A stretch of 64,000 nt of DNA, from contig URLZ01000001.1 of NCBI GenBank assembly GCA_900548895.1, positions 1 through 64,000 of the forward strand, given 5' to 3'. The position numbers and the translations under genes were made by a program. The first letter of the stretch is position 1; each line of letters opens with the position of its first letter. Positions 25,609 through 63,259 of the stretch are shown here, one piece after another. The notes under the pieces are model-generated. The model was not told where the DNA came from and ran no database searches. It worked only from the letters and a program-made list of their open reading frames with translations. The stretch is from an uncultured Akkermansia sp. Its GTDB lineage: Bacteria; Verrucomicrobiota; Verrucomicrobiia; Verrucomicrobiales; Akkermansiaceae.

Positions 25609-25637
25609 TTGAATGAGGCGCCGTTCGCTGCTAGAAT
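25609..25637 (+). promoter_or_regulatory. Promoter giving a leaderless coaE-rho mRNA
   Basis: TTGAAT at 25609-25614, 17 nt, TAGAAT at 25632-25637. The -10 box ends 7 nt before ATG 25645, so transcription should begin at or next to the start codon. An in-frame ATG at 25636 lies inside the -10 box and is therefore not a credible start. Confidence 0.75.
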
Positions 25638-25644
25638 GCCCGCG

Positions 25645-27534
25645 ATGAAGGTCATCGTTGTAACAGGGGGAATCGCCTCCGGCAAATCCACGGCCGTCGG
25701 GATGCTCACGGAGCTCGGCGGCAAGGGTGTTGAGATTTTTGACTGTGATGAGCAGGCGCGTCGGCTTCGCGAGAGCGGTGCTCTCACGGAAGAGCTGGCC
25801 CAAGTGCTCGGTCCCGAGGTGCTCGATGAGCAGGGGCAGCTGAGCACGGAGAGCCTGCGGCGCTTGGTCGAGAGCGATGCGGAGAAGCGCGCCGCGCTCG
25901 GCCGCGTGGTGCACCCGCGTCTGGCGGCGGCGTATGCCGAAGCGGTGCAGGCTGCTCGCGAGCGTGACGATGTGCATACCTTCATTCTCGATGCGCCGCT
26001 GTATTTTGAATCCGAGTCCGAGTTCCCGGCGGACATGGTCTGTGTGGTGGCGTGCAGCCCGTCGACGCAGAAGGCGCGCCTGATGCGCCGCAACGGCTTT
26101 TCGGAGCAGGAGGCCGATCTGCTGATGGGCGCTCAGATGCCGACGGACGAGAAGATGCGGCGGGCGGACGTGGTCTTCTGGAACGAAGGGGCCCGCGTGC
26201 GCATGCAGGCTCAGGTGCAGGTCTTCTTCAATACGTGGATTGCGCCCGAGGTGAAGGCTCTTCAGGCGCGCTCCCGCGTCTTCCGCATCAACGAGTTGAG
26301 GCTCCTGCCGCTCAATGAGCTGGTGACCATGGCCCGCGAGGCGGAGCTGCGCTATGCGCTGAGCCTTCCGCGCGCCGAGCTGACTTATGAGCTGATGCGC
26401 TTCCACCTCAACAGCGGCGCTCAGGTGCTGGCGAGCGGGGTGCTGGAGTTCTGCCCAGGCGGCGAGGTAGTACTGCGCGACGGTGCGCGCAGCTTCCGCC
26501 CCGGCAAGGATGATCCCCTGCTGCCGAACGAGCTGGTGCGCCGCTTCGGCCTGCGCCCCGGTCAGGAGGTGTCGGCGCGCCTGCGCCTGCCGCGCCACCC
26601 CCGCGAGAACGGTACGCTGGTGGTCGATGAACTGCTGCAGATCGAGGGTGTTCCGGCTGCCGATTTTCAGGCGCCGAAGGAGTTTGAGAAGCTCACGCCG
26701 CTCATCCCCCGCGAGCGCCTGATTCTCGAGAACAACGTGAACAAGGCGGCCTCCATGCGCGTGCTGGATCTGATCACTCCGCTGGGCCTCGGACAGCGCG
26801 CGCTCATCGTGGCGCCTCCCCGCGGCGGCAAGACGGTGCTGCTCAAGACGATTGCCGGCTCGCTGCGCGCCAACTACCCGGATCTCGACCTGCTGATTCT
26901 GCTGCTCGACGAGCGCCCGGAGGAAGTGACGGATTTTGAGGAGACGGTGGACGCCCCGGTCTACGCCTCGACCTTTGATGAGCCCTCGAAGCGCCATGCA
27001 CAGCTCAGCGACTTGGTGCTCGAGCGGGCGCGGCGCCTCGTGGAGCAGGGCCGCAACGTCGTCATCATGCTCGATTCGCTCACGCGCCTGGCCCGCGGGT
27101 ACAACGCGAATCAAGTGGGCGGGCGAACGATGTCCGGCGGCCTCGGCTCGAACGCTCTGGAGAAGCCCCGCAAGTTTTTCGGTGCGGCGCGCAATGTGGA
27201 GGAGGGCGGCAGTCTGACGATTATCGCGACCTGCCTCGTCGATACGGAGTCTCGCATGGACGAGATCATCTTCGAGGAGTTCAAGGGAACGGGCAATATG
27301 GAGATTCGCCTCGATCGCGACTTGGCCGAGCGCCGCATTTACCCGGCCATCTCCATTCCCCAGAGCGGTACGCGCAACGATGACCGCCTCTATCACCCCG
27401 ATGAGCTGGTGCGCGTGCTTCAGCTGCGCCGCCAGCTGGCGATGCTGCCCGGCTGGGAGGGGCTGGAGACGCTCAAGCGCAATATCGCGGCGACGCAGAA
27501 CAACGCCGAGCTGCTGCTGCGCGGCCTGCGTTGA
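25645..27534 (+). CDS. Fusion of dephospho-CoA kinase (CoaE) and transcription terminator Rho
   Basis: 629 aa in one uninterrupted frame. Residues 1-205 are dephospho-CoA kinase, the last step of coenzyme A synthesis: P-loop GGIASGKST at the start, [14 protein letters not shown], and [13 protein letters not shown]. Residues about 215-629 are a full-length Rho: N-terminal helical domain ([16 protein letters not shown]), an RNA-binding OB region whose RNP1-like stretch is diverged, Walker [12 protein letters not shown] near residue 389, [12 protein letters not shown], the Q-loop ([14 protein letters not shown]), and the R-loop block [16 protein letters not shown]. coli CoaE is about 206 aa and Rho 419 aa, so both parts are complete. 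The stand-alone proteins are unrelated in function. Whether the fusion is known in the phylum could not be checked here. Confidence 0.95.
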
Positions 27535-27792
27535 CCGCGAGCGCGCCCCGCGCCCTGAATGCCCTCTCCGGCCCCAGGGGCGGCTCGGTGGAGTGCCCCG
27601 CATGTCACGACGCGCGGGGAGGCGGAGGGCCGGTGCGGCGGAGCGTTCCCCGGCTTTCGACGCCCTGCTGAGGCTTGCCTTTCCCGCAGTCGCCGCCTCC
27701 GGTCTCCATGTTCGGGGGAGGAAGCGGGCAGAACGGCACGACCGGGCGGCACATACCCCCGCACTTCGCCCTCGCTTGCATCCACGCCGCCC

Positions 27793-28674: not shown

Positions 28675-28683
28675 ATTGCGCGG

Positions 28684-28689
28684 ACAGTA
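28684..28689 (-). promoter_or_regulatory. Putative -10 box of the hydrolase gene
   Basis: TACTGT on the minus strand ends 9 nt before ATG 28674, again the leaderless spacing. The -35 is unclear (TTGCTT at 19 nt). Confidence 0.4.
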
Positions 28690-28699
28690 TGCATTTTTC

Positions 28700-28728
28700 T
28701 TGCCATAAAAGCAAGCTTGATGTAGTCT
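28700..28728 (+). promoter_or_regulatory. Promoter giving a nearly leaderless mRNA for 28739
   Basis: TTGCCA at 28700-28705, 17 nt, TAGTCT at 28723-28728. The -10 ends 10 nt before ATG 28739. Confidence 0.6.
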
Positions 28729-28738
28729 GGATGCAGGC

Positions 28739-29830
28739 ATGAAACCATTTTTTTACTCTCTTCTGGCCGTCTCCGCCGCCCTCCCCGCTGCATGGGCACA
28801 AGTGGGCAACGACGCACTCGACGCCGCGACGCGTCGCCACATCGCTCAGCGCGAAATGGCGCAGCAGCCGAAGCAGGAAGCCCCGCTGAGGCTCCCTCAT
28901 CAGGAGAGAGCCCGCGAAATTGCGGACTTGGTGTATAACACCTGGCGCGTCTGCCACGCCAACGGCGGCAATCTGGCCGAATGGGAGCGCTGCACCACAC
29001 GCTCGCGTGTGCGCAAGGTGCGCAACCTCATTGTCTCGCAGCGCGGTCGCTATCCGCAGGCCTACTTCCGCGAGGCCCAGTACATGCCCTCGCTGGATCG
29101 CTTCAACTACGTGGGCTCCGTGGCTTCCTGCAACGGGAATACGCTCGCGGCCACCTACTTCGGCAAGGTGCAACTCGGCGATGGCAAGCCGTCGGACACG
29201 GCCTTCGTGATCCTGCTGGTCAACGAGGACGGCCGCTGGAAGGTGGATCAGACGCGCTGCTTTGACCTCTCCCGCATCCCCGAGGTGCGCAAGCGCCTGC
29301 TGGCGCGCGACACCAAGGTGCTCATGGAGCAGGACGGCTTTCACCCCTACCGCTCGATTCCCGAGATCCCGCCGGCCTGCCCGGCTCCGCAGCTGATCGG
29401 CAAGATCTTCGTTGACTGCCCCGGGCGCGAGATTGACCTGCGCATCAACGGGATTTCTGCCCACGAGTTTTACGACGAACGCCGCGCCGACGTCATCTCC
29501 GGCGGGCTGCGCCGCGGCTCCAACACCATCTCGTACACCATCCGCGAACTCGACGGCCGCGAACACCCCTCGATGGCGATCGGGCTCTTTGTCATGCCCG
29601 AGACGCCCGGCAACGCCCCTGTTTGCGTCTTTGACCACATCCTGGATGCCTCCGACGCGGCGAAGGGCGGCAGCTTCACCTTCAACGTCTCCAACACGCA
29701 GATCGCGTCGATGAACCCGAAGTTCACGGGAGAGAAGCCTCAGCCCTTCCACGCCGTGCCGCTCAAGAAGCGCGACGAGAAGACCGAGAAGCCCGACCCT
29801 GCCGTGGCTCCCGCGCCTCCCGCGAACTGA
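28739..29830 (+). CDS. Secreted hypothetical protein
   Basis: 363 aa with a Sec signal peptide (residues 1-20, ending AWA). A helical segment rich in R/Q/E follows (about 25-60), then a domain (about 60-180) with a cystatin/NTF2-like feel: YNTWRVCHANGG, then DTAFVILLVNEDGRWKVDQT, a strand pair that often closes such folds. The second half (about 195-330) has short beta strands and may be a beta-sandwich. The tail is rich in K/E/P/A. The function is not recognised. The start is fixed by the promoter, whose -10 lies 10 nt upstream. It is probably periplasmic. Despite the shared control region, no functional link to the divergent hydrolase is evident. Confidence 0.75.
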   Translation: MKPFFYSLLAVSAALPAAWAQVGNDALDAATRRHIAQREMAQQPKQEAPLRLPHQERAREIADLVYNTWRVCHANGGNLAEWERCTTRSRVRKVRNLIVSQRGRYPQAYFREAQYMPSLDRFNYVGSVASCNGNTLAATYFGKVQLGDGKPSDTAFVILLVNEDGRWKVDQTRCFDLSRIPEVRKRLLARDTKVLMEQDGFHPYRSIPEIPPACPAPQLIGKIFVDCPGREIDLRINGISAHEFYDERRADVISGGLRRGSNTISYTIRELDGREHPSMAIGLFVMPETPGNAPVCVFDHILDASDAAKGGSFTFNVSNTQIASMNPKFTGEKPQPFHAVPLKKRDEKTEKPDPAVAPAPPAN

Positions 29831-30003
29831 AGCGGGGCGGGGAAAGGGGGGATAGCCTCCGGGGCTCACCCTCCGCCTGAACGGAGAGGCGCACCGCCTG
29901 AGCGGCGACTGGGAAGCCGGAGAGGCCTCCCGAGCGCTGAGCGCAGAACGCTGAGTGTGTCGTTGCGCCTCAGCCGTGCTCGGGCTCTGGTTGGGTGCCT
30001 CCG

Positions 30004-30107: not shown

Positions 30108-31454
30108 TCAGGCGGTGGCGATGTGCGGGCGCACGAGCCGCCAGCAGGTGATGAACGAGCTGGCGAAATCCTCCGGGCGGCGCTCGATCCAGCGGTCTAT
30201 CAGCTCCGCCGGGAAGGGGAGCACACCGGCAATTTCCGCCGCGGGGAAGCGCACCTTGCCGCCGTGCATCGCCGCATAGAGCTCCACGTGCTCCATGCCC
30301 GTCTCCTCGCAGGGCGCGAGGTGGCCGATGCGGACGAGCTTCGCCCCGCTGATGCCGAGCTCTTCGCCCAGCTCGCGCTCGGCCGCTGCCTCATAGCTCT
30401 CCCCGGCATCCAAGTGGCCGGCGGCGGAGGAGTCCCAGACGCCCGGCTGGCGGTCCTTGAGCATCGAGCGCTTTTGCAGCAGGCAGTCGCGATTCTTGTT
30501 GAACACGAGGATGTGGACGGCGCGGTGCATCAGCCCGCGCTCGTGCACCTCGCGGCGCGTCGCCTGGCCCGTCACCACATCGTCGGAGTCCACCACATCG
30601 AAGAGCTCGTCATCGCGCTGCGCGACAGCCGCCAGCGGGTGCGAATCATAGAGCTCCGTCAGCTCGGCCCATTGCCTCAGGCTCAGCTCCTCGGGGCGCG
30701 CCGTCAGCGAGACGCCGAGGCGCGAGGCCACCTCGGCCCAGGCCGGCTCCGGCGGCAGAAACTTGTACATCTGTTTGCGGCGCTGGGCATAGCAGCGCTG
30801 CATCAGCGAGTTCATCAAGCGGTGATCGAAGGGGGGCAAGCTCAGCGGGTCGCGCGGCGTGAGCAGCATCACCGTCGAATCAATCTTGGGGCGCGGGAAA
30901 AAAGCCTCGGGAGGCACCGTGCGGAGAGCCTGCGGCACCCAGTCCATCTGCACCCGCAGCGAGAGAATCCCGTAGGCCTCGTCTCCCGGCCCGGCCAGAA
31001 TGCGATCGATGAACTCCTTTTGCAGCATCACCACCGCGCGCTCGCAGGCGCAGGGCTGCGTGAGAAAATTGGCGAGAATCGCGCCGCCGCACGAATAGGG
31101 CAGATTGCCCAGAAACTTCACCGGACGCTCCGCAAAGAGGCAGCGGGGATCCCACGAGGCCCCGTCCGCATGGTGCACCTCCACGTGCGCGTCGTCCGCC
31201 CAGCGCTCGCGGTGATAGGCCGCGAGGCGGGCATCGAACTCCACGAGAATCAGCTTGCGGCAGCGGGGCGCGACAAACTCCGTGAGAGCCCCCGTGCCCG
31301 GACCGACCTCCACCACGCAGTCCTGCGGCTGAAGGTCGAGCTGATCCACAATCCGCCGCGCCACGTTCTCGTCGATGAGAAAGTTTTGCCCGAGGGACTT
31401 GGAGGGCGTGATGCCGGCCCTGTCGAGAACGTCGCGGATCTGGGTGATATTCAT
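30108..31454 (-). CDS. ksgA: Fusion of 16S rRNA dimethyltransferase KsgA (RsmA) and a Nudix hydrolase
   Basis: 448 aa from ATG 31454, fixed by a promoter 8 nt upstream. Residues 1-265 are KsgA, which dimethylates the two adenines near the 3' end of 16S rRNA: KSLGQNFLIDENV, SAM motif VEVGPGTGALTEF, and the catalytic NLPYS near residue 115. Residues about 280-448 are a Nudix hydrolase with an intact box GHLDAGESYEAAAERELGEE (about 346-365), led by DDELFDVVDSDDVVTGQA. That lead resembles the YfcD/isopentenyl-diphosphate-isomerase-like Nudix branch. KsgA alone is about 270 aa, so this is a true fusion and both active sites look complete. The Nudix substrate is unknown. It is divergent from hemB. 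Confidence 0.93.
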   Translation of the reverse strand: MNITQIRDVLDRAGITPSKSLGQNFLIDENVARRIVDQLDLQPQDCVVEVGPGTGALTEFVAPRCRKLILVEFDARLAAYHRERWADDAHVEVHHADGASWDPRCLFAERPVKFLGNLPYSCGGAILANFLTQPCACERAVVMLQKEFIDRILAGPGDEAYGILSLRVQMDWVPQALRTVPPEAFFPRPKIDSTVMLLTPRDPLSLPPFDHRLMNSLMQRCYAQRRKQMYKFLPPEPAWAEVASRLGVSLTARPEELSLRQWAELTELYDSHPLAAVAQRDDELFDVVDSDDVVTGQATRREVHERGLMHRAVHILVFNKNRDCLLQKRSMLKDRQPGVWDSSAAGHLDAGESYEAAAERELGEELGISGAKLVRIGHLAPCEETGMEHVELYAAMHGGKVRFPAAEIAGVLPFPAELIDRWIERRPEDFASSFITCWRLVRPHIATA

Positions 31455-31462
31455 GCGCGTGC

Positions 31463-31491
31463 ATTGTAGCCCTTGGCCCTGAGCTTGGCAA
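31463..31491 (-). promoter_or_regulatory. Promoter giving a leaderless ksgA-nudix mRNA
   Basis: On the minus strand TTGCCA (31491-31486), 17 nt, TACAAT (31468-31463), ending 8 nt before ATG 31454. Confidence 0.7.
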
Positions 31492-31502: not shown

Positions 31503-31531
31503 TTTACAGCACGGGGGGCCGGTGCTACAAT
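31503..31531 (+). promoter_or_regulatory. Promoter giving a nearly leaderless hemB mRNA
   Basis: TTTACA at 31503-31508, 17 nt, TACAAT at 31526-31531, ending 10 nt before ATG 31542. The two divergent promoters do not overlap and fill the 87-bp gap. Confidence 0.7.
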
Positions 31532-31541
31532 CGCCCCGCTT

Positions 31542-32540
31542 ATGTTGCATCTGCCCATTCGTCCCCGCCGCAACCGCAAGTCGGCCGTTGTGCGTGATCT
31601 GATTGCTGAAAGCTCGCTGAGCGCCTCCCACCTCATCTACCCCATGTTCGTGCAGGAGGGAGATGAAAACACCCCCATCGAATCACTGCCCGGCTGCAAG
31701 CGCTGGAGCATCGAGGGCATCGTCGGCGAGTGCGCGCGACTGTATGCGCTGGGCATCCGCTGCGTGGACCTCTTCGCCGTCGTCCCCGAAGAGAAAAAGG
31801 ACGCGGAAGGCTCCGAGGCATGGAACCCCGAGGGCGTTGTTCCCCGGGCCATCAGGGCCATCAAGGCCGGCGTGCCCTCCATGTGCGTGATGACGGACGT
31901 AGCCCTCGACCCCTTCAACACCTACGGGCAGGACGGCATCGTGCGTGAGTACCCCAACGGCAGCTATGAGATTCTCAACGACAAGACGGTGGACGCCCTC
32001 TGCCGCCAAGTGCTCTGCCACGCCCGCGCCGGCGCCGATATCATTTCGCCCAGCGACATGATGGACGGCCGCATCGCCGCCATGCGCAGCGCTCTCGATG
32101 CCGAGGGCTTTACGCGCGTCAGCCTCCTGAGCTACACCGCCAAATACGCCTCATCCCTGTATGGCCCCTTCCGCGGCGCGCTGGGCAGCGCCCCGAAGTT
32201 CGGCGACAAAAAGACCTACCAGATGGATCCCGCGAACCGCCGCGAAGCGATGCGCGAGGCCGAGCTGGATATCGCCGAGGGTGCCGACATGCTGATGGTC
32301 AAACCGGCCACGCTCTACCTCGACGTCATCTCGGATCTCCACCTCAACACCCACCTGCCCATCGCAGCCTACCACGTCAGCGGCGAGTACCTCATGCTCA
32401 AGGCCGCCGCGGCCTCAGGCTGGCTCGATGAAAAGGCCGCCACGCTCGAGACCCTCCTCTCCATCCGCCGCGCCGGTGCCGATATGATCCTCACCTACGC
32501 CGCGCCGGATGTCGCCGCTTGGCTGGCTGAGGAGTCCTGA
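31542..32540 (+). CDS. hemB: Delta-aminolevulinic acid dehydratase (porphobilinogen synthase)
   Basis: 332 aa, the normal family length. It condenses two 5-aminolevulinate molecules to porphobilinogen, the second committed step of haem and other tetrapyrroles, in the cytoplasm. Visible landmarks are IYPMFVQEG, the metal/lid region DVALDPFNTYGQDG, DIISPSDMMDGR, and both Schiff-base lysines (SYTAKYAS near 201 and MLMVKPA near 252). The lid region has Asp and Thr in place of the three cysteines of zinc-type enzymes, so it should be a magnesium-dependent form. The start at ATG 31542 is supported by the promoter; an upstream in-frame ATG (31473) lies within the divergent control region. No other haem gene is in view. 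Confidence 0.96.
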   Translation: MLHLPIRPRRNRKSAVVRDLIAESSLSASHLIYPMFVQEGDENTPIESLPGCKRWSIEGIVGECARLYALGIRCVDLFAVVPEEKKDAEGSEAWNPEGVVPRAIRAIKAGVPSMCVMTDVALDPFNTYGQDGIVREYPNGSYEILNDKTVDALCRQVLCHARAGADIISPSDMMDGRIAAMRSALDAEGFTRVSLLSYTAKYASSLYGPFRGALGSAPKFGDKKTYQMDPANRREAMREAELDIAEGADMLMVKPATLYLDVISDLHLNTHLPIAAYHVSGEYLMLKAAAASGWLDEKAATLETLLSIRRAGADMILTYAAPDVAAWLAEES

Positions 32541-38544: not shown

Positions 38545-38725
38545 GCGAAAAATCCGCCCTAACGCGAGCCAAAAATGCCCGCATGACATGCTGAACAGCG
38601 AAAGCCCACCTGAGCATCCGCTCGGGCGCAGCAGGCCTCGGCCCCGCTTCCTTCGCCTCGCTAAACACGGATGTAACAATACCATACAGACGCATTTTAT
38701 GCTCGCCATGAGCCGACGCGTGTAC

Positions 38726-38731
38726 TATAAT
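38726..38731 (+). promoter_or_regulatory. -10 box of ilvD
   Basis: TATAAT ends 10 nt before ATG 38742. An in-frame ATG at 38730 lies inside this box, which argues against it as the start. The -35 position (TCGCCA, 38703-38708, 17 nt) is imperfect. Confidence 0.6.
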
Positions 38732-38741
38732 GGCTTCCGCT

Positions 38742-40409
38742 ATGTTATCAGATCGTACCAAAGCCGGTATCGAACGCGCGCCCCATCGCAGCCTGATGCG
38801 CGCCACGGGCATGACGGATGAAGACATAAAAAAACCGTTCATCGCCATCTGCAACTCCTTCAACGAAGTCATTCCCGGGCACGTCCACCTCAACAAGGTA
38901 GCAGCCCTCATCAAAGAGGAAGTCCGCAAAGCCGGCGGCACCCCCATCGAGTTCAACGTCATCGGCGTCTGCGACGGCATCGCCATGGCGCACAAGGGCA
39001 TGAAATACTCTCTGGCCAGCCGCGAGCTCATCGCCGACAGCGTCGAAACCATGCTCACCGCCCACGCCTTCGACGCCTGCATCTGCATCCCCAACTGTGA
39101 CAAAATCGTCCCCGGCATGGTCATGGGCGCCCTGCGCTGCAACATCCCCACCATCTTCTGCTCGGGCGGCCCCATGGCCGCCGGCCGCAGCCGCACCGGC
39201 GAAGTGCTCGACCTCAACAGCGTCTTTGAAGCCGTCGCCGCCTGCACCGCCGGCAAAATCAGCGAGGAAGAGCTGCACGACGTCGAATGCCGCGCCTGCC
39301 CCGGCGCCGGCTCCTGCTCCGGCATGTTCACCGCCAATTCCATGAACTGCCTCTGCGAAGTCATCGGCCTCGCCCTCCCCGGCAACGGCACCCTGCTGGC
39401 CACCTCCGGAGAGCGCAAGGAACTCTGGCGCGCCGCCGCGCGCCGCGCCGTTGAAATGGCTCGACAAGGCGGCCCCCTGCCGCGCGACCTCGTCACGCAG
39501 GAGAGCATCGACAACGCCTTCACCTGCGACATGGCCATGGGCGGCTCCTCCAACACCGTGCTGCACACCCTCGCCTTCGCCAACGAAGCCGGCATCAACT
39601 ACGACCTGCGCCGCATCGACGCCATCTCCAAGCGCACCCCCAACATCTGCAAAGTTGCCCCCAGCTCCAAATACCACATGCAGGACGTCCTGCGCGCCGG
39701 CGGCGTCATGACCATCCTTGCGGAGATCAACCGCATCCCCGGCGCCCTGCACACCGAGTGCCCCACCGTCAGCGGCAAAACCCTCGGCGAGCAAATCGAC
39801 GGCCTGCGCAGCCTTGACACCGCCGTCATCCACCCGATCGAGAACGCCTACTCCCAGGACGGCGGCCTCGCTGTCCTCTTCGGCAACCTCGCCGAGCAGG
39901 GAGCCATCGTCAAGAAAGCCGGCGTGCTGCCCGAAATGATGGTGCACCGCGGCCCCGCCGTCATCTTCGAATGCCAGGAGGACGCCTGCGCCGGCATCCT
40001 CGCGGACAAAGTCAAGCCCGGCGACGTCGTCGTCATCCGCAACGAAGGCCCGAAGGGCGGCCCCGGCATGCAGGAAATGCTCGCCCCCACCAGCTACATC
40101 ATGGGCAAGGGCCTCGGCAACAGCGTCGCCCTCATCACCGACGGCCGCTTCTCCGGCGCCACCCACGGCGCCTGCATCGGCCACGTCTCGCCCGAAGCCG
40201 CCGAGGGCGGCCTCATCGGCCTGCTCAAGGACGGCGACATCATCAGCATCGACATACCCGCGCGCAGCATCAGCGTCGAGCTCAGCGATGAAGAAATCGC
40301 CGCCCGCCGCGCCGCATGGGCCCCCACCTTCCAGCCCATCGAAGGCCGCTGGCTCAAGCGCTACCGCAAGCTCGCCACCAACGCCAGCAACGGCGCCGTG
40401 CTCGAGTGA
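38742..40409 (+). CDS. ilvD: Dihydroxy-acid dehydratase
   Basis: 555 aa, normal length. It dehydrates 2,3-dihydroxy-isovalerate and 2,3-dihydroxy-3-methylvalerate to the 2-oxo acids in valine and isoleucine synthesis (and the pathway to leucine and pantothenate). The iron-sulphur cysteines are in [23 protein letters not shown] and [19 protein letters not shown]. Other landmarks are [21 protein letters not shown] and [12 protein letters not shown]. The start is ATG 38742, because the ATG four codons earlier is part of the -10 box. A hairpin follows at 40423-40455. No other branched-chain gene is in view, so it is a lone gene, divergent from the envelope operon. Confidence 0.96.
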
Positions 40410-46426: not shown

Positions 46427-46456
46427 TTGACCGAAGGGCGTGTGTTCACCTAGAAT
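46427..46456 (+). promoter_or_regulatory. Promoter giving a leaderless mRNA for the Sel1 lipoprotein
   Basis: TTGACC at 46427-46432, 18 nt, TAGAAT at 46451-46456, ending 7 nt before ATG 46464. Another in-frame ATG at 46455 overlaps the box. Confidence 0.7.
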
Positions 46457-46463
46457 GAGCGGC

Positions 46464-47686: not shown

Positions 47687-47714
47687 TTGCCTTTCGCGTC
47701 GCCGGGTGTAGAAT
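47687..47714 (+). promoter_or_regulatory. Promoter giving a leaderless EamA mRNA
   Basis: TTGCCT at 47687-47692, 16 nt, TAGAAT at 47709-47714, ending 9 nt before ATG 47724. Confidence 0.65.
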
Positions 47715-47723
47715 CGGCGCGCG

Positions 47724-48668
47724 ATGATGAGATCTGAGCTCAGGGGGCACGCTGCGGCGCTGCTGGCTGTGCTGTTTTTCGGGCTGATGAGCCCGGTGTC
47801 GAAGCTGGTGATGCAGGGCGGAATCATCGATGGAGCCCTGCTGGCTTCCTTCCGCATTGCCGGGTCGGCGATTCTGTTCTGGCTGCTCTCGCTGCTGGTG
47901 CCCTCGCAGCCGATTCGTCGCCGCGATTGGCCGGCGCTCATCGGCATGTCGCTCTGCGGCATGGCCTGCAATCAGTATCTCTTCGTGATCGGTGTGCAGT
48001 ACACCTCGCCGACGAATGCCTGTGTGGTGACGACCTCGACGCCGGTGATGACGATGGCGATGGCGGCGCTGGTGCTGCATGAGCGCCTGACGCGGCGCCG
48101 TGTGCTGGGGCTGGTGCTCGGTGCGGGCGGGGCCTTGACGCTGATTCTCGGCTCGGCGTCGGGCTCGGGGCAGGGGGGAAGCGTGCTCGGTGACGTCCTC
48201 TGCCTGCTCTCTCAGTTCTTTGCGTGCTGTTACTTCATCTTTTTCGGCAGCTTGATTCGCCGCTATCGCACGCTGACGCTGATGAAGTGGCTGTTTGCCA
48301 TTTCCGCGCTGGGCTCGCTGCCCTTCATGGCGCCCTCCTGGGCGGCTCTGCCTTGGGCCGCATTGAGCTGGCGCGAGTGGGCGGGGATGCTCTACGTGGT
48401 GCTGATCGGCACCTTTGTCTGCTACATCCTGCTCATTATGGCTCAGCGCCGCCTGTCCCCCTCGGTGGTGGCGACGTACAATTATGTGCAGCCGGCGGTG
48501 GCGGCGACGGCAGGGGTTCTCTGGGGGCTTGATGTGCTGACGTTCCAGAAGCTGCTGGCGGTGCTCCTGATCATTGCCGGTGTGCGCTTGGTGACGGTGC
48601 ATACGCCGAGCCGCGAGGCCCGTGCCTCTGCTTCAGCGCCCTCGCCGCTGCCCTCGAAACGAGCCTGA
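47724..48668 (+). CDS. EamA/DMT-superfamily transporter
   Basis: 314 aa with ten hydrophobic segments in two EamA halves (about residues 5-140 and 155-290). Landmarks are LLAVLFFGLMSPVSKLVM, SFRIAGSAILFWLLS, the end of the first half TTSTPVMTMAMAALVLHERL with its typical E-R-L, and the same arrangement in the second half (YNYVQPAVAATAGVLWG). Family members export or import metabolites such as amino acids, purines or nucleotide sugars. Nothing here identifies the substrate. The C-terminus is a short polar tail. It is a single gene with its own promoter. Confidence 0.9.
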   Translation: MMRSELRGHAAALLAVLFFGLMSPVSKLVMQGGIIDGALLASFRIAGSAILFWLLSLLVPSQPIRRRDWPALIGMSLCGMACNQYLFVIGVQYTSPTNACVVTTSTPVMTMAMAALVLHERLTRRRVLGLVLGAGGALTLILGSASGSGQGGSVLGDVLCLLSQFFACCYFIFFGSLIRRYRTLTLMKWLFAISALGSLPFMAPSWAALPWAALSWREWAGMLYVVLIGTFVCYILLIMAQRRLSPSVVATYNYVQPAVAATAGVLWGLDVLTFQKLLAVLLIIAGVRLVTVHTPSREARASASAPSPLPSKRA

Positions 48669-52057: not shown

Positions 52058-52783
52058 TCAGATGAGCTCCTTCATGCGGTTGACGGTGATGCCGGGCACG
52101 GTGAGCCGCGAGCCGTCGGGTCGCCTCAGGATGGGCGAGCCGTCGCTCTCCACCCCGGCGAAGAAACCGCAGACGCGCTCGGTGTCGGTAATGGCGACGA
52201 CGGGCTGACTCTCGCCCCAGGCGAGTTCGAGCTTGGAGGCGATGGCGTCCAGTCCACCCTCGATGAAGTAGTTGAAGTTTTCCGCGAGGTTGTCGGCGAT
52301 GATGGTGCGCAGCTTTTTGACGGAGGGGCAGCCGACGACGAGGTCGCCCAGTCGGGCGGGGGGATCCGTCGTCTGCCCGTCGAGCGCGACGACGTTGTTG
52401 AAGACGTTGACGCCGATGCCGACGGAGGCCATGGTCGCGGCAGGGCGTTCGACGAGGATACCGGCGAGCTTTTTCTTGCCCACCAGCACGTCGTTGGGCC
52501 AGCGCAGGCGCAGGCCGTCGATGCCGTAGGGGCGCAGCGAGTCGATGATGGCCACGCCGGCCACGAGGGGCAGCAGGCCCCAGGAGCGCGGAGACTTCGG
52601 ATCAATGGGGAGGTTGTAGGAGGCCCAGAGACCGCCGGGCTCGCCGAACCACGGGCGGTTGAAGCGTCCGCGGCCGTGCGTTTGCTGATTGCAGCTGACG
52701 ATGGTCCAGGCGGGGAACTTGCGGGCCACGTTGAATGTCGAGTCGCAGACGTCGACCTCCTCCACTTTCCATTGCATGCTCAT
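52058..52783 (-). CDS. birA: Biotin-[acetyl-CoA-carboxylase] ligase, without DNA-binding domain
   Basis: 241 aa from ATG 52783, with an alternative ATG two codons later. It activates biotin with ATP to biotinyl-AMP and transfers it to a lysine of the biotin carrier protein of acetyl-CoA carboxylase. Motifs: VCDSTFNVARKF, the biotinyl-AMP loop QQTHGRGRFNRPW, LRWPNDVLVGKKKLAGILVE, VGIGVNVFN and a C-terminal SH3-like domain (VCGFFAGVESDGSPIL). It lacks the N-terminal helix-turn-helix of E. coli BirA, so it is a ligase only, not a repressor. TAGAAT ends 6 nt before the ATG, predicting a leaderless mRNA. It is divergent from the GNAT gene. Confidence 0.94.
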   Translation of the reverse strand: MSMQWKVEEVDVCDSTFNVARKFPAWTIVSCNQQTHGRGRFNRPWFGEPGGLWASYNLPIDPKSPRSWGLLPLVAGVAIIDSLRPYGIDGLRLRWPNDVLVGKKKLAGILVERPAATMASVGIGVNVFNNVVALDGQTTDPPARLGDLVVGCPSVKKLRTIIADNLAENFNYFIEGGLDAIASKLELAWGESQPVVAITDTERVCGFFAGVESDGSPILRRPDGSRLTVPGITVNRMKELI

Positions 52784-52789
52784 GGCTCC

Positions 52790-52795
52790 ATTCTA
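52790..52795 (-). promoter_or_regulatory. -10 box of birA
   Basis: TAGAAT on the minus strand ends 6 nt before ATG 52783. The -35 region is degenerate. Confidence 0.55.
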
Positions 52796-52857: not shown

Positions 52858-52887
52858 TTGCTTGGGCGGCTGTCTGTTTGCTAGAAA
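52858..52887 (+). promoter_or_regulatory. Promoter giving a leaderless GNAT mRNA
   Basis: TTGCTT at 52858-52863, 18 nt, TAGAAA at 52882-52887, ending 7 nt before ATG 52895. Confidence 0.65.
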
Positions 52888-52894
52888 GAGGGCG

Positions 52895-53479
52895 ATGGAC
52901 AGAGTGCATGAGAGAGAGAGGAGGGCGGCGGCCGAGGAGCTGCGCGCCGTGCGCATCAGATCGGCGCAGGATGAGGGTTATGCCGCTCTCCTGCGGCTGA
53001 TGGAGGGCAGTTTTCCGCCGGAGGAGCGCCGCAGTGAGCCCCAGCATCGGCGGGCCCTGGCCGAGGGCGATTTTCATTGCCTGCTGCTGCGCGAGGAGGG
53101 GCAGGTGGCGGGGCTGCTCACCTATTGGCTCCACCGGGACTTCGCCTTTGTGGAGCATCTCGCCGTCAATCCTGAGCAGCGCGGGCGGGGGCTCGGCCAT
53201 CGCATCATGCAGTTGCTCGCGGAGGAGCTCTGCCCGGGCGTACCCGTCATCCTTGAAATTGAGCCGGTTTGCGATGAGATGACGGCGCGCCGGCTGCGCT
53301 TTTATGAGAGCTGTGGCTTTGTGCGCCTGCCGGATGCTCATGTGCAGCTTCCCTATCACGCCGGGGGCTCTCCGCTGCCGATGGAGCTGCTGCTGCACCC
53401 CTGCGGCGCGCCGGCTGTGTGCCCGCCGGGCTTTGAGGATTACGTCCGCGGACACGTGATGCAGTACGTTGACCGCTGA
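52895..53479 (+). CDS. GNAT-family N-acetyltransferase
   Basis: 194 aa from ATG 52895. The longer open frame upstream runs through birA's control region and is not real. GNAT landmarks: VRIRSAQDEGYAALLRLMEG, then VAGLLTYWLHRDFAFVEHLA, the acetyl-CoA-binding AVNPEQRGRGLGHRIMQLLA (Q/R-x-x-G-x-G/A) and LRFYESCGFVRLP. It transfers an acetyl group from acetyl-CoA to an amine; the substrate could be a protein, a small metabolite or an antibiotic. No partner gene suggests which. It is divergent from birA, with both promoters in a gap of 111 bp. Confidence 0.88.
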   Translation: MDRVHERERRAAAEELRAVRIRSAQDEGYAALLRLMEGSFPPEERRSEPQHRRALAEGDFHCLLLREEGQVAGLLTYWLHRDFAFVEHLAVNPEQRGRGLGHRIMQLLAEELCPGVPVILEIEPVCDEMTARRLRFYESCGFVRLPDAHVQLPYHAGGSPLPMELLLHPCGAPAVCPPGFEDYVRGHVMQYVDR

Positions 53480-53658: not shown

Positions 53659-54147
53659 TCAGGGATTGCGGCGGCTCATGAGCTCGGCCAAGGCTTCATT
53701 CAGTCGCGCGGCGAGGGCGTCGCTGCTGCCCGCGGGGGCGAGTTGCTGCTGCTCGAGCATGCGGGAGATGTGAATCTGAAGCTCTACGTTCCTCTTGAGC
53801 TGCCCGAGCAGTCGCTGCGCCTCTTCCGGCGGCAGGGTGGCGTCCTGAAGATTTTGGATGATGCTCTGCGCCTCCACTTTCAACACGTCGGTGTAGTTCG
53901 CCGCGCCGCTCGCGCATTGCTCCCAACTCCGCTGCACGTCGGTATAGGGGGAGGCCGCGAGGTTGTGCTGCTGCTGCACAAGGGCGGCCAAGGTGTCACG
54001 GTCGGCAAGCTTGGCAACTGGCGTCGCCGCGGATGCTGCGGATGCCGGGGGTGTCGCCGTCGCGTCCGCGGCGGCGAGCGGGGGCAGGGCGAGGGCGGCG
54101 GTGCTGAGGATCACGGCGTAGGGGTGATGGGCTGGCTTCATGGTCAT
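53659..54147 (-). CDS. Small periplasmic helical protein
   Basis: 162 aa from ATG 54147, with an alternative ATG at 54141. It has a signal peptide (about residues 1-27, ending PLAAADA) and an A/T/P-rich linker. The remainder is helical with heptad-like spacing (LAALVQQQHNLAASPYTDVQ, AQRLLGQLKRNVELQIHISRML), so a coiled coil is likely. No known family was recognised. A CATAAT box (54163-54158) ends 10 nt before the ATG, the leaderless spacing. The longer frame to 54207 passes through that box and is less likely. Confidence 0.65.
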   Translation of the reverse strand: MTMKPAHHPYAVILSTAALALPPLAAADATATPPASAASAATPVAKLADRDTLAALVQQQHNLAASPYTDVQRSWEQCASGAANYTDVLKVEAQSIIQNLQDATLPPEEAQRLLGQLKRNVELQIHISRMLEQQQLAPAGSSDALAARLNEALAELMSRRNP

Positions 54148-54301
54148 GTTCAGGGCAATTATGCCCTCTTCCTTTGCAAGGCTAACAAGAGCGGATGCTC
54201 CCGTCAAGTTGAAAGTCGCTCGATGACGCGATGGCGGGCGGGCTCGCTTGCAATCGCCGGCTCCATTTCCGAACGGAGCGGCGAGGGCGGCGGGGGGCAG
54301 T

Positions 54302-58568: not shown

Positions 58569-58630
58569 GGTGCGTGAGAAGGTGAGAAAGACGGCCGCGG
58601 GCGTTTTCTCTGCCCGGCGGCAGCCCCACC

Positions 58631-59404: not shown

Positions 59405-59431
59405 TGCCTTGCGCTCTGTAACGTCCTTTTC

Positions 59432-59458
59432 CGGGCGCGGGCCTTCGGCCCGCGCCCG
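59432..59458 (+). terminator. Strong terminator hairpin after the ferritin-like gene
   Basis: CGGGCGCGGGCC and GGCCCGCGCCCG form a perfect 12-bp stem around TTC, 28 bp after the stop, followed by a short T-rich stretch. Four A residues on the opposite side of the stem could let it act on both strands. Confidence 0.75.
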
Positions 59459-59659
59459 TTTGCTGTCCGTTTGACGCACGTTTGACGCCCTCCGGCATCC
59501 TGCCCCCTGTTGCCGTGTTCTCGGGGAGAATCCGGCCGCGAGGAGGCTGTGGAGGGGACAGTGGCGTGGGTGGTGGAGTGGGCGGCGTGCGGCGAGGTGC
59601 GCCGGGCTGAATGAGGCGCCCGCCGTGGGTGCCCGCTCGGCGAAAAGGCGTTTTGCGGA

Positions 59660-59688
59660 TTGACAGGCCGCGGGGGATAGGGTAAGCT
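59660..59688 (+). promoter_or_regulatory. Promoter giving a nearly leaderless rlmI mRNA
   Basis: TTGACA at 59660-59665, 17 nt, TAAGCT at 59683-59688, ending 9 nt before ATG 59698. Confidence 0.65.
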
Positions 59689-59697
59689 TGCCCCGTT

Positions 59698-60882
59698 ATG
59701 GCAGGTCTCATCATTGCGCCCAAAGCGCGCATTTTTCACGGGCACGACTGGGTATACGGAACGGAAGTCCGCACGGTCTTCGGCAATCCGAAGCCCGGGG
59801 ATGTGGTGCTGCTCAAGGATCAGCGCGACCGCTACCTCGGCTCTGCCATGTACAACCCCCACTCCCAGATCGTCGCGCGCCGCTTCTCCCGCCGCAAGCA
59901 GGATCTCGATCGCGACTTTTTCGCGCGCCGCATTTCTCAGGCCATCGCGCTGCGCGAGCGCTGGCTGCCCGGCGAGCAGATGATGCGCCTCGTCTGGAGT
60001 GAGAGCGACGGCCTTCCCGGCCTCATCGTCGATCGCTACGCCGACGTCCTCGTGGTGCAGACGCTGACGATTGCCATGCACCAGCGCTTCGGCCTCATCC
60101 GCGATCTGCTCGGCGACCTGCTGCAACCGCGCAGCATCATCGTGCGCAACGATTCCCCGATGCTGCTGGCCGAGGGCATTGAGCCGGAGACCTACGTCGC
60201 TGCCGGGGAGCAGCCGGAGCCCTTCGTAGCCACCGGCCGCGGGCTGAGCTTTGTTGTGGACTTGGCCACGGGGCAGAAGACGGGCCTCTACCTCGACCAG
60301 ATGGACAACTATCAGGCCGTCGCGCGCTTTGCCCGCGGGCGTCGCGTGCTGGACTGCTTCTGCAACCAGGGCGGCTTTGCCCTCGCCTGCGCCAAAGCCG
60401 GGGCCGCGAGCGTGACGGCGGTCGATATCTCGGAGGAGGCCATCGCCTCCGTGCGCCGCAATGCGGAGCTCAACGGGGTGCAGGTGGAAGCCGTGGCCGA
60501 CAACGCCTTCGATTTCCTCAAGCGCGAGAGCGACCTCGTGCGCCACGGCGCCGACCCGAAGTGGGATCTCATCATCCTGGATCCGCCGAGCTTCACCCGC
60601 AACAAAAAGAGCCTTCAGGGAGCGCTGCGCGGATACAAGGAGATTCACCTGCGCGCCATGCAGATGCTGCCCGTCGGCGGCGTGCTCTCCACCTTCTGCT
60701 GCTCGCACCACGCCAGCAGCGCGCTCTTCCGCCAGACGATCGCGGACGCGGCCGTCGACGGGCACAGCACGCTGCGCCTCGTCGCCACGCACGGCCAGAG
60801 CATCGACCACCCCGTCCTGCTCAACATCCCCGAGACGGAGTACCTCAAGGGCTTCACCTTTGAAATGGTGCCCGGCCGCTGA
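59698..60882 (+). CDS. rlmI: 23S rRNA (cytosine-5) methyltransferase RlmI-like
   Basis: 394 aa, the family length. RlmI methylates C1962 of 23S rRNA in E. coli using SAM. An N-terminal PUA domain (about residues 1-75: IIAPKARIFHGHDWVYGTEV) is followed by a central EEHEE-type domain (SDGLPGLIVDRYADVLVVQ) and a Rossmann methyltransferase: VLDCFCNQGGFALACAKAGA (motif I), VTAVDISEEAIAS, motif IV ILDPPSFTRNKK and the catalytic region STFCCSHHAS with Cys. All key residues look present. The start is fixed by the promoter 9 nt upstream. It is a single gene; the exact target site in this organism is assumed from the family. Confidence 0.92.
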   Translation: MAGLIIAPKARIFHGHDWVYGTEVRTVFGNPKPGDVVLLKDQRDRYLGSAMYNPHSQIVARRFSRRKQDLDRDFFARRISQAIALRERWLPGEQMMRLVWSESDGLPGLIVDRYADVLVVQTLTIAMHQRFGLIRDLLGDLLQPRSIIVRNDSPMLLAEGIEPETYVAAGEQPEPFVATGRGLSFVVDLATGQKTGLYLDQMDNYQAVARFARGRRVLDCFCNQGGFALACAKAGAASVTAVDISEEAIASVRRNAELNGVQVEAVADNAFDFLKRESDLVRHGADPKWDLIILDPPSFTRNKKSLQGALRGYKEIHLRAMQMLPVGGVLSTFCCSHHASSALFRQTIADAAVDGHSTLRLVATHGQSIDHPVLLNIPETEYLKGFTFEMVPGR

Positions 60883-60996
60883 TGCCTCGGCGATCGCTCG
60901 GAACTGCGTCAGGCCGGGGCGGGCAGGATTCCGCGCTCGCACCGGTTTCCCAGCTCTGCCGCGAGACTTCCGAGCTCGTCGAGGCTCGTGTGATCG

Positions 60997-61007
60997 CCCC
61001 CCCCCCC
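60997..61007 (+). repeat. Poly-C tract (C11)
   Basis: Eleven consecutive C residues, 83 bp upstream of the -35 box of the deacetylase gene. It is the longest homopolymer noticed in the window. Confidence 0.75.
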
Positions 61008-61089
61008 GCTGCGGCAGGAGGCTCGGAGGGCCCGTCGGAGCTGCCCTGTTCCCGCTGCGGGTGCTCAAGCGCTCACTGCGTCATTTTAC

Positions 61090-61117
61090 TTGCATCTCGC
61101 TCACTTTGTGATACCGT
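61090..61117 (+). promoter_or_regulatory. Promoter giving a leaderless deacetylase mRNA
   Basis: TTGCAT at 61090-61095, 16 nt, TACCGT at 61112-61117, ending 6 nt before ATG 61124. Confidence 0.5.
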
Positions 61118-61123
61118 AGGCGC

Positions 61124-63259
61124 ATGTCACGCAAGAGCCGCATCTCTGAGCCTCTGATGATGCTCGCCGTTGTGGCCGTCGTCGTGCTGGTGGCGGTGCT
61201 GATGCGCCTGCACCGCGAGCATGCTTCGGCCGCCGCTCCCCTGTCTCTCTCAGACAGCGCTTGTGCGGCTCCGGCCGTTTTGCCGACGGCGACTCCGGCC
61301 GAAGCGAAACTTCCGCTCGTTCTCAATTATCACGCCATCACATCGGACGGCCGCTACGGCAGCCTGAGCACGGCCTCATTTCATCGGCAGATGCGCTGCC
61401 TGCGCGAGCTGGGTTTTACCCCCGTCTCCCTGGCTGATGCCATTGCGGGCGCCCGCGGCGAGAAAGCACTGCCGCCGCGCAGCGTGCTGCTCTGCTTTGA
61501 TCGGGCGGACGCCGACTTCGTGCGCTATGCCTTCCCCGTGCTCAACCTGCTGGATTATCCCGCCGCCGTGCAGGCCGACGGCCGCAATCTGGCGTCCGAG
61601 CCGTCGAGCCTGACGCCGACCCAGCTCGTGAACCTCAGCCGCCGCGGTGCCGGAGTCATCTGCGCAACGCGCCTCCGCCTCTCCTCCGAGGCGTGGGAGA
61701 GCGCCCGTGATGCCGGCGGCACGACGCTGCGCGAGCTGATGCGCTCCGAAATCGTCGATTGCCTCCGCAACTTCCGCGAGCTGCTCGGCCGTTGTGAAGT
61801 CCTCTCGCTGCCCGAGGGCATCAGCCTTCGCAACAGCTCCCGAGAGCTCGATGCCGCCGGCTGCCGACTGACCATGGTCGCCGGACTCTCCTCCGCCCAG
61901 GCGCCCGGCGCCGCCGTGCTGGAGCGCCGCGACGTGGCGAGCAGCGAGGACTTTGCCGCCATCCTCAGCGGCGGCAGCGCCGAGCGCGAGGCCGATATCC
62001 TCAACCGCCTGAAAGACTGCGCCCTGCCGGCCGGCAGTCCCGGCACCCCCGGCTGGCAGCCCATCATGGATGTCGATGCCGAGATCGCGGAGGCAGCAGA
62101 CCCCGACTTCCTCGATCTGGAGGCCGACGCACCGCCCGTTCCCACCTGCGGGCGCTTGGCCCGCCGACACGGCACCGGAGACTGGATCACCACGAGCTTC
62201 GACGCCCCGCTGGTGCCGCGCGACCGCACGCGCGTCGCCGTGCTCGGCTACCACAACTTCAGCAACACCAAAAAGGTGACGGACATGCGCATGCGCACCT
62301 CCGAGTTCTGCACCCAGATGCAGTACATCCGCGACGCCGGCCTGAGCGTCATCACGATGCAGGACTTCCTCGAATGGCGGCGAGGCCGCCGCTGCCTGCC
62401 CGAGCGCTGCGTGCTCATCACCATCGACGACGGCTGGAAGAGCGTCTACACCGACGCCTACCCCGTCCTCAAAGCCTACGGCTACCCCTTCACGCTCTTT
62501 CTCTACACGCGCTACATCGGTGTGCAGGGCGACTCCATGACGAAGGACATGATCCGCGAGATGGCACAAAACGGCGCCACCCTCGGCAGCCACTCCACCA
62601 ACCACCTCTACCCCAGCGCTTGGAAAAAGGTGCCGCAGGACAGCCCCGCCTATGCGGAGAAAATCCGCGTTGAGATGCTGGATTCGGGGGATCGCCTCGC
62701 CGCCCTCTTCCCGCCGTCGCCCTGCTCAACCTACTGCTACCCGGGCGGCTACAACACCCCGCCCATGATCGAGGCCCTCAGCACCTCGCGTTACAAGGCC
62801 GCTTTCACCGTGCTGGAGAAAAAGGTCAGTTGCACCGAGCCCGTCTACCTCGTGCACCGCTACATGGTCTTCGGCACACAGCCGGAAATCTTCCGCCGCG
62901 CCGTCAACTTTGACGGCAGCGGGAACGCCCCCAAGCAGCGCGCCGCCATTGCCGCCGCGGAGACGAGGGCGCGGGCCTTCTTCCCGGCCGCGTTCCCGAA
63001 TGCGGGCGGTGCTGCAAGTGTTCCCGGAACGGGATGGGGGGCGTCCAACCCCTCCGCTCCGAGCACAGCACGCGAGGTGTCGGGGCAGGGGCCCCGGGGC
63101 GGAGCGGCCTCCGTCGCACCCCGGCCTTCAGCTCAGCACCCCTCCGCGCTGCCGCCGATCCCGACCGATGAGGACATAGCAGTTGATCCCGACGAGGAGG
63201 TCGAGGAGGAAGCCGAGACGACGGAGCTTCCGCCATTGCCCGAGTACCCGGAGTTCTGA
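61124..63259 (+). CDS. Membrane-anchored tandem polysaccharide deacetylase (CE4), first copy degenerate
   Basis: 711 aa. A signal anchor (about residues 8-28) is followed by two NodB-type domains. The first, about residues 65-270, keeps the frame LPLVLNYHAITSDGRYGSLS and a motif-1 strand VLLCFDRADADF where active enzymes have TFDDG, so it lacks a complete metal site. The second, about 370-600, is complete: VAVLGYHNFS, CVLITIDDGWKSVY (motif 1), GSHSTNHLYPS (motif 2) and YCYPGGYNTP (motif 3). CE4 enzymes remove N- or O-acetyl groups from chitin, peptidoglycan or other polysaccharides. The last 110 residues are G/P/S-rich and end acidic. The substrate is unknown; cell wall or exopolysaccharide is likely from its location. 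Confidence 0.88.
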   Translation: MSRKSRISEPLMMLAVVAVVVLVAVLMRLHREHASAAAPLSLSDSACAAPAVLPTATPAEAKLPLVLNYHAITSDGRYGSLSTASFHRQMRCLRELGFTPVSLADAIAGARGEKALPPRSVLLCFDRADADFVRYAFPVLNLLDYPAAVQADGRNLASEPSSLTPTQLVNLSRRGAGVICATRLRLSSEAWESARDAGGTTLRELMRSEIVDCLRNFRELLGRCEVLSLPEGISLRNSSRELDAAGCRLTMVAGLSSAQAPGAAVLERRDVASSEDFAAILSGGSAEREADILNRLKDCALPAGSPGTPGWQPIMDVDAEIAEAADPDFLDLEADAPPVPTCGRLARRHGTGDWITTSFDAPLVPRDRTRVAVLGYHNFSNTKKVTDMRMRTSEFCTQMQYIRDAGLSVITMQDFLEWRRGRRCLPERCVLITIDDGWKSVYTDAYPVLKAYGYPFTLFLYTRYIGVQGDSMTKDMIREMAQNGATLGSHSTNHLYPSAWKKVPQDSPAYAEKIRVEMLDSGDRLAALFPPSPCSTYCYPGGYNTPPMIEALSTSRYKAAFTVLEKKVSCTEPVYLVHRYMVFGTQPEIFRRAVNFDGSGNAPKQRAAIAAAETRARAFFPAAFPNAGGAASVPGTGWGASNPSAPSTAREVSGQGPRGGAASVAPRPSAQHPSALPPIPTDEDIAVDPDEEVEEEAETTELPPLPEYPEF

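Follow-up and report, generated by a model that had tools for sequence, protein, structure and literature searches.

Promoters abutting start codons form a large class in an Akkermansia-related clade of gut bacteria

The window analysed here, a stretch of 64,000 nt from a gut bacterium related to Akkermansia (Akkermansia-type clade of Verrucomicrobiota), raises the question of whether the promoter-like hexamers that lie a few nucleotides before many of its start codons are genuine promoters and, if so, whether their transcripts would carry a leader at all. A sequence-only reading of this DNA had paired twelve hexamers with start codons. All twelve pairs exist at the coordinates given, 6-10 nt separating the last base of the hexamer from the start codon (hereafter the gap). 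TANNNT fits ten of the twelve hexamers, the exceptions being two weak sites: TAGAAA before a rimI-like gene (52882..52897, forward strand, gap 7, ATG 52895) and CATAAT before the gene starting at 54147 (54145..54163, reverse strand, gap 10, ATG 54147). Our results confirm that promoter-like boxes abutting start codons are a genuine pattern, with a density well above that of most of the phylum.

To measure the excess over chance, we used 33 listed window starts, namely the twelve claimed and 21 others, a list that includes the picks of the sequence-only reading itself. TANNNT at gap 6-10 preceded 10 of the 33, whereas 1000 dinucleotide shuffles averaged 1.2 and never exceeded 6; TANAAT preceded 7 of them, with a shuffle average of 0.06 and never more than 2. 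In 5-nt bands farther upstream of the same starts we counted 0-4 TANNNT. For a selection-free test, genes were called on coding signal only, promoters being ignored, with a simple caller of our own whose starts contain errors. Starts chosen by coding score alone were often too far downstream (the calls were late for coaE-rho, ilvD and the genes starting at 46464 and 47724), and the test therefore took in every in-frame candidate close to the 5′ end. The caller also placed some window genes on doubtful strands, for example 27793-28554. Before the in-frame ATGs of first genes, TANAAT at gap 5-10 occurred 7 times in the window (33 first genes; 0.6 expected), 15 times in G001, the nearest relative (1.2 expected), and 11 times in G106 (2.2 expected), while out-of-frame ATGs gave 0 in each case.

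Shine-Dalgarno sites, counted over first genes as a whole and not over boxed ones alone, were not enriched in the window (3 versus 6.8 expected), in G001 (11 versus 16.0) or in G106 (24 versus 26.0); an E. coli control for the same count gave 12 versus 1.0 expected. An excerpt of PMC10783764 places Akkermansia among the Shine-Dalgarno-scarce taxa. With a promoter matrix trained on other genomes, we recovered the layout in 9/33 (window), 37/117 (G001) and 33/116 (G106) first genes, compared with 1, 4 and 3 at out-of-frame starts and 3, 8 and 12 at a distance shifted by 20 nt. The raw share of first genes with the layout is thus 27-32%, and 18-25% remain once the shifted control is subtracted. 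The idea that it represents the general mode of initiation of the lineage holds in that the class is dense and conserved, but it is one large class, about one-fifth to one-third of clade first genes, and not the sole mode.

Conservation could be assessed for seven of the twelve window sites. The coaE-rho fusion (25609..25647, forward strand) has TTGAAT(17)TAGAAT at gap 7 from ATG 25645. Of 43 Akkermansia-type loci (L001-L043), 42 have TANNNT at gap 6-10; in the 43 the start codon is GTG in 39 cases and ATG in 4, and the protein alignment begins at residue 1. For birA, which encodes biotin ligase (52781..52795, reverse strand, TAGAAT, gap 6, ATG 52783), the box lies at gap 6-7 in 31/31 when a start shift of up to 3 codons is allowed, and it stays in place before 24 GTG and 7 ATG starts. 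The box of ilvD (38703..38744, forward strand, weak -35, TATAAT, gap 10, ATG 38742) was kept in 31/31 at gap 9-10, with gap 9 in 29 of them. At hemB (31503..31544, forward strand), which has TTTACA(17)TACAAT at gap 10 from ATG 31542, TANNNT lies directly before the start in 26/31. The rsmA-nudix site (31452..31491, reverse strand, TTGCCA(17)TACAAT, gap 8, ATG 31454) was kept in 6/6, that is, in the window and five relatives; 25 of the 30 fetched loci had no rsmA match. Box and start were thus conserved at 25645, 31454, 31542, 38742 and 52783. They were conserved too at 28739 (28723..28741, forward strand, TAGTCT with CTTG upstream, gap 10), with two homologues only, the same layout standing upstream of those in L001 and L002 among three loci matched. 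At 52895 the N-terminus was not conserved and TANNNT was present in 0/2 sequences.

No homologue with the same N-terminus was found in the fetched DNA for start 54147 or for four forward-strand sites. These are a TPR/Sel1-like gene (46451..46466, TAGAAT, gap 7, ATG 46464) and a transporter-like gene (47709..47726, TAGAAT, gap 9, ATG 47724), both named from matches under curated cut-offs, a methyltransferase (59683..59700, TAAGCT with TTGACA upstream, gap 9, ATG 59698) and a polysaccharide deacetylase (61112..61126, TACCGT, gap 6, ATG 61124).

We then profiled 101 non-redundant sites, which are not independent because they come from only five gene families (coaE-rho, hemB, ilvD, birA and rsmA). 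At spacing 17 the -35 profile read T 0.99, T 0.58, G 0.83, A 0.67, C 0.49, A 0.48, so that a TTGACA-like element lies 17 nt upstream of the box, as in a sigma-70-type promoter; a literal TTG at spacings of 15-19 nt was present at only 46/101 sites. TGn stood just before the -10 box at 64/101 sites (coaE-rho 31/31, hemB 18/21, ilvD 15/18, birA 0/25, rsmA 0/6). The consensus would be close to cTTGACA, 17 nt, (TGn)TAnAAT, resembling that of a housekeeping sigma-70 factor. RNA polymerase usually initiates 7-8 nt past the -10 box. From the position, conservation and make-up of the boxes, the lack of a Shine-Dalgarno excess over all first genes and the enrichment in the clade described below, we infer that these sigma-70-like promoters are very probably set so that the mRNA begins on the start codon or about 2-4 nt before it. 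At gap 6-7 the 5′ end would fall on the first base of the start codon. At gap 9-10 it would fall about 2-4 nt before it, and a leader of that length is more likely there than a strictly leaderless mRNA. The ribosome would then initiate without a Shine-Dalgarno site, at or beside a 5′-terminal AUG or GUG.

The same boxes could be true promoters followed by ordinary leaders, the real start codons lying farther downstream and the proposed starts being wrong. Starts were indeed assigned from sequence only, and the coding-score caller put several of them farther downstream. However, the coaE-rho proteins of all 43 loci align from residue 1, the window coaE-rho has no ATG, GTG or TTG codon from its start to the end of the GGIASGKS loop, in 30/30 relatives the ilvD alignment starts at residue 1, and out-of-frame ATGs show no TANAAT excess, so that this explanation is improbable. 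A chance origin of the boxes, as A/T-rich hexamers in the low-GC DNA between genes, is less probable still. As a motif TANNNT is weak, and A+T content is usually higher between genes than within them, but the shuffles and the upstream bands fall well short of the ten boxes seen, and across dozens of genomes the box stays at an almost constant distance, a -35-like element lying 17 nt from it. We consider chance refuted for coaE-rho, ilvD, birA, hemB and rsmA. Least probable of all is that the A/T-rich stretch serves translation, for instance as a signal for ribosomal protein S1, and is no promoter. An A/T bias at about -20 to -10 is discussed for non-Shine-Dalgarno genes generally in an excerpt of PMC5397173; yet the conserved TANNNT is accompanied by the -35-like element at 17 nt and, in three of the five genes, by TGn, and these argue against a translation signal because such a signal would not need them.

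If the boxes are promoters abutting the start codon, as we favour, their position is useful for calling starts in clade genomes. The sequence-only reading had used them to correct several starts, and this was supported where tested. The mechanical ORF of ilvD, for instance, begins at 38730, inside the -10 box. A start at 38742 and not 38730 is supported in that 30/30 relatives align from the residue encoded at 38742, and in that the usual gap of 9 throws the ATG equivalent to 38730 out of frame.

We also followed the layout across the phylum. A control with the pattern reversed was set aside, being confounded by composition, and a gap shifted by 20 nt was used instead. With the full architecture, the six clade genomes ranked 1-6 among 145 sampled genomes, with 462 sites versus 159 at the control distance. 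Mean strict matches per genome, chance matches included, were 77 in the six clade genomes, 7.6 in ten sibling-clade genomes and 6.2 in 128 others. The genome-wide count at 6-10 nt proposed by the sequence-only reading likewise gave enrichment, seen in the nearest relative (TAGAAT occurred 37 times at 5-10 nt and 11 times at 25-30 nt), in five other clade genomes, where the excess is smaller (ratios of 1.6-2.0), and at orthologous promoters. In the ten sibling-clade genomes TAGAAT was not in excess (562 versus 553), and the strict pattern exceeded its control slightly (76 versus 48, p 0.007). One of them, G028, has the layout in 20/178 first genes (11%), so that the window clade looks denser, and G108, outside the clade, shows a strong excess. 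Given the sibling counts, G028 and G108, the layout fits neither as a mark of the whole genus nor as a mark of the clade alone. For ilvD, the box lies 22-24 nt from the start in 8/10 genomes outside the clade versus 9-10 nt inside it. As this spacing differs within one genus group, a switch between leaderless and leadered forms is directly testable.

A scan that took every hexamer upstream of every ATG, without annotation, was noisy, since ATGs mostly fall within genes. In the window plus G001, TACAAT ranked third and TAGAAT thirteenth, the two other Akkermansia-type sets had no TANAAT hexamer among the 22 listed, and TAGAAT came first only in G108. The in-frame ATGs of G108 showed no TANAAT at gap 5-10; the gene caller failed there, and boxes before long ORFs are present. 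Draft genomes often come without a 16S gene, and for this reason the finding of an intact 16S end in 9/59 genomes, in a search for anti-Shine-Dalgarno sequences, says little.

Leaderless genes of mycobacteria and other actinobacteria, a different phylum, have 5′ ATG or GTG starts without a leader. Leaderless transcripts as a kind are already known closer to the window: an excerpt of the A. muciniphila Cappable-seq study (PMC4782308), from the same broad lineage, reports transcription starting on the annotated start codon at 10% of start sites (886 positions), compared with 0.4% in E. coli. The known lineages named by the sequence-only reading thus left out Akkermansia itself. The same excerpt presents this leaderless set without a promoter layout. 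Deinococcus-Thermus, an unrelated phylum, likewise has the -10 box a few bp ahead of ORFs and leaderless mRNA, for about 30% of ORFs, but there the -10 motif can serve as promoter, with an added -35 strengthening it (excerpt of PMC12340547), whereas the window clade conserves the -35-like element at 17 nt. The TA-led genes of Zheng et al. 2011 (PMC3160421) likewise have TANNNT, about 10-12 bp before the start, and were taken as leaderless; in the window clade a -10-like box precedes the start by about 6-10 nt more often than chance predicts, and the words Akkermansia and Verrucomicrobia are absent from the main text of that paper. What appears new is the density in this Akkermansia-related gut clade, a heavy use of the leaderless layout that could be recognised from sequence alone, together with two distance classes.

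These classes lie at 6-7 nt and 9-10 nt, and 8 nt is avoided. By the majority gap of each family, gaps 0-5 combined held 16 families, gap 6 held 41 and gap 7 held 38, so that the distribution rises sharply at 6 nt. For the dip at 8 nt the p value is 2e-6, which is post hoc because the dip was noticed after looking. Gaps 6 to 12 held 20, 10, 8, 19, 9, 6 and 9 of the 85 strict sites in G001, and 12, 4, 3, 7, 5, 6 and 4 among the 54 sites listed for G138, distributions that match the dip in part only, gap 7 being low too. The base at -1 was C in 85% (gap 6) and 79% (gap 7), and a pyrimidine at 0.93 (gap 6), 0.89 (gap 7), 0.58-0.61 (gap 9-10) and 0.92 (gap 11, 12 families). The pyrimidine excess at gap 6-7 is moderate because other ATG starts of these genomes already have 0.62-0.80 (C at -1, 0.24-0.61); in our own gene calls for G106, C at -1 was 0.44 at gap 6-7 (16 starts). 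It is a tentative and rather doubtful suggestion that leader length is quantised, at 0 nt (gap 6-7) or one codon (gap 9-10, position -3 being a purine at gap 10), with 1-2 nt avoided (gap 8). If true, this would fit a ribosome that, with the start codon in the P site, tolerates an empty or a full E-site triplet and not a partly filled one.

We examined twelve pairs of a -10-like hexamer (hereafter the box) and an ATG which the sequence-only reading had proposed for the window, with 6-10 nt between the end of the box and the start codon (the gap), and for which it had suggested leaderless mRNAs as a general mode of initiation. All 12 pairs are present where that reading had placed them. Ten of the hexamers fit TANNNT, the exceptions being TAGAAA at 52882 and CATAAT at 54163, and -35-like elements (TTGAAT, TTGCCA, TTTACA and TTGACA) lie upstream of the examples inspected. 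Among 33 listed window starts, the reader's own 12 included, TANNNT is found at gap 6-10 in 10, versus 1.2 in shuffles. The box/start layout is therefore confirmed as an observation, and its leaderless reading is well supported. As to its generality, more than one initiation mode is in use in the window, because some starts have no near box, among them those of a transporter at 40546 and of an ankyrin-repeat protein with a thioredoxin-like domain (42166-44355, plus strand).

The layout was also counted independently of the sequence-only reader's selection. Genes were called from coding signal alone, first genes (those 50 nt or more behind the next gene) were kept, and boxes were counted before every in-frame ATG close to the 5' end. 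Out-of-frame ATGs served as a control, and the expectation was taken from gaps 20-50. The genomes compared were G001 (the window's nearest relative) and G106, both from the Akkermansia-type clade with a fused coaE-rho gene, and G028, from a sibling clade. At gap 5-10, TANAAT was found 7 times versus 0.6 expected in the window, 15 versus 1.2 in G001, 11 versus 2.2 in G106 and 7 versus 2.8 in G028, with 0, 0, 0 and 1 out-of-frame occurrences, respectively. The looser TANNNT gave, in the same order, 12 versus 5.4, 34 versus 9.4, 44 versus 17.6 and 49 versus 27.0. Shine-Dalgarno cores (GGAG, AGGA or GAGG) at gap 5-10 showed no excess in any of the four (3 versus 6.8, 11 versus 16.0, 24 versus 26.0 and 32 versus 31.6). 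The test is able to detect such sites, since 70 kb of E. coli yields 12 versus 1.0.

Scored with a promoter matrix that had been trained on 87 sites of other genomes, 9 of 33 first genes of the window show the layout, as do 37 of 117 in G001, 33 of 116 in G106 and 20 of 178 in G028. Out-of-frame controls gave 1, 4, 3 and 5, and shifted controls 3, 8, 12 and 8. Net of the shifted control the share is 18%, 25%, 18% and 7%, respectively; being trained on this layout itself, the matrix says nothing on the frequency of other promoter types.

In G001 as a whole, TAGAAT precedes ATG 37 times at gap 5-10 versus 11 at gap 25-30. We extended this comparison to 145 genomes of the phylum, of which six carry the fusion and ten (the sibling genomes) have a Rho match of 66-68% without the CoaE part. 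The counts were 472 versus 255 in the six clade genomes (p below 0.003 for each), 562 versus 553 in the sibling genomes and 6375 versus 6158 in the other 129, which include an outlier, G108 (137 versus 31). With the full architecture, CTTG-N19-21-TANAAT-N5-10-ATG, against a control with N25-30, the clade yields 462 versus 159, the sibling genomes 76 versus 48, G108 57 versus 11 and the 128 others 791 versus 762. Ranked by this count, the clade genomes occupy places 1-6 and G108 the seventh; the latter is possibly a second, independent case of the layout. G108 lies outside the clade, with a GC content of 0.65 and only a weak Rho match, and at its loci L142-L161 TAGAAT mostly stands 7-9 nt before open reading frame ATGs, AAAGGA-type Shine-Dalgarno signals being present too.

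Conservation was assessed in 30 relatives per gene, the best matches from 59 genomes searched. Window included, a box at gap 5-11 is found in 31/31 sequences for ilvD, 31/31 for birA (allowing a shift of the start by three codons at most), 26/31 for hemB and 6/6 for rsmA, which encodes a fusion of the 16S rRNA dimethyltransferase RsmA (KsgA) with a Nudix domain (30108-31454, minus strand) and had a match in only 5 of 30 loci. Four of the boxless hemB genes (L179, L182, L186 and L188) are probably inside an operon, because they directly follow an open frame of 191-202 codons; in the fifth (L175) the aligned start reads ATA. Box conservation failed for the rimI-like gene at 52895 (0/2 homologous sequences). 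After removal of near-identical upstream regions, the box is kept in 31/32 for coaE-rho, 21/24 for hemB, 18/18 for ilvD, 25/25 for birA and 6/6 for rsmA, and control bands of the same width give 0-5, except the ilvD band adjoining the box (9/18). Over 101 non-redundant sites the -35 averages to cTTGACA, 17 nt from the box, with T at the first position in 99%; 46 sites carry a literal TTG at a spacing of 17 or 18, and TGn directly precedes the box in 64, its presence varying gene by gene.

The coaE-rho gene (25645-27534, plus strand) encodes dephospho-CoA kinase and the transcription terminator Rho as one fused protein of 629 aa, a fusion on which our literature search found no paper. Its identity is 85%, in the best segment, with the protein of Candidatus Akkermansia intestinigallinarum (locus L001, in genome G001) and 59-71% with the proteins of 42 loci, mostly Akkermansia or Akkermansiaceae (L002-L043), which places the window in an Akkermansia-type member of Verrucomicrobiota. 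Full-length matches are found at Akkermansia-type and Luteolibacter-type loci; in the ten sibling genomes the best match spans the Rho part only. Upstream of the gene in L001-L043, which starts with GTG in 39 and ATG in 4, TANNNT lies 6-10 nt before the start in 42/43 (exception L031) and CTTG begins 34-43 nt before it in 41/43. This promoter layout looks older than the clade, because CTTG is equally far from the start in 26/35 of the more distant loci (L044-L080, from Luteolibacter, Haloferula and others, excluding L055 and L070 and with L062 and L071 anchored at residue 3), and 26/35 have NANNNT at the place of the box, TANNNT itself being there in only 2/35.

Ten outgroup genomes were taken from the genus group of G001 outside the fused clade: seven are sibling genomes (G022, G025, G028, G031, G064, G083 and G112), and G159, G175 and G182 were placed by lower hemB, ilvD and birA identity. 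The ilvD box lies 9-10 nt from the start within the clade (L193-L222), and in 8/10 outgroup genomes (L253-L262) a TACACT or TATACT box lies at gap 22-24; TANNNT is also found at gap 6 in G022 and at gap 10 in G182. For outgroup hemB, TANNNT is at gap 6-10 in 0/10, and no near box was seen in the birA stretches examined, where the start is uncertain.

The gap distribution was drawn from 363 sites in 1.84 Mb of clade DNA, grouped by majority gap into 219 protein families. Gaps 0-5 together hold 16 families, followed by 41 at 6, 38 at 7, 8 at 8, 22 at 9, 21 at 10, 11 at 11, 6 at 12 and 7 at 13; beyond that, each gap up to 25 holds about 4. An edge at 6 nt is as expected if the start codon must not precede the transcription start. 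C directly precedes the start in 85% of sites at gap 6 and 79% at gap 7, versus 24-61% at other ATG starts of these genomes, and in only 44% of the 16 gap 6-7 starts in G106's own gene calls. Sites at gap 10 have a purine at -3 in 86% and C at -4 in 62%, a pattern weakly repeated at gap 9 (purine at -3 in 59%). Read after the fact, these classes would correspond to leaders of 0 nt and about 3 nt, 1-2 nt being avoided.

Leaderless expression is a known kind of expression and is already known in this genus. A Cappable-seq study of mouse cecum gives 10% leaderless start sites for A. muciniphila (886 positions) and 0.4% for E. coli (PMC4782308), and another paper lists A. muciniphila and A. glycaniphila as Shine-Dalgarno-scarce organisms keeping CCUCC (PMC10783764). 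Three papers treat the same kind of signal for other phyla (PMC3160421, PMC5397173 and PMC12340547), their main texts containing neither Akkermansia nor Verrucomicrobi(a). Judged by titles and abstract beginnings, the papers listed by searches for Verrucomicrobia leaderless genes and Akkermansia start-site maps included no other relevant report; as far as these searches reach, the distance classes, the conservation of the architecture and the density in the clade would thus seem new to print.

The window also contains an open reading frame of 3763 aa (903-12194, minus strand), for which Pfam gave no match at 1e-5, and a further ankyrin-repeat protein (15631-17421, plus strand).
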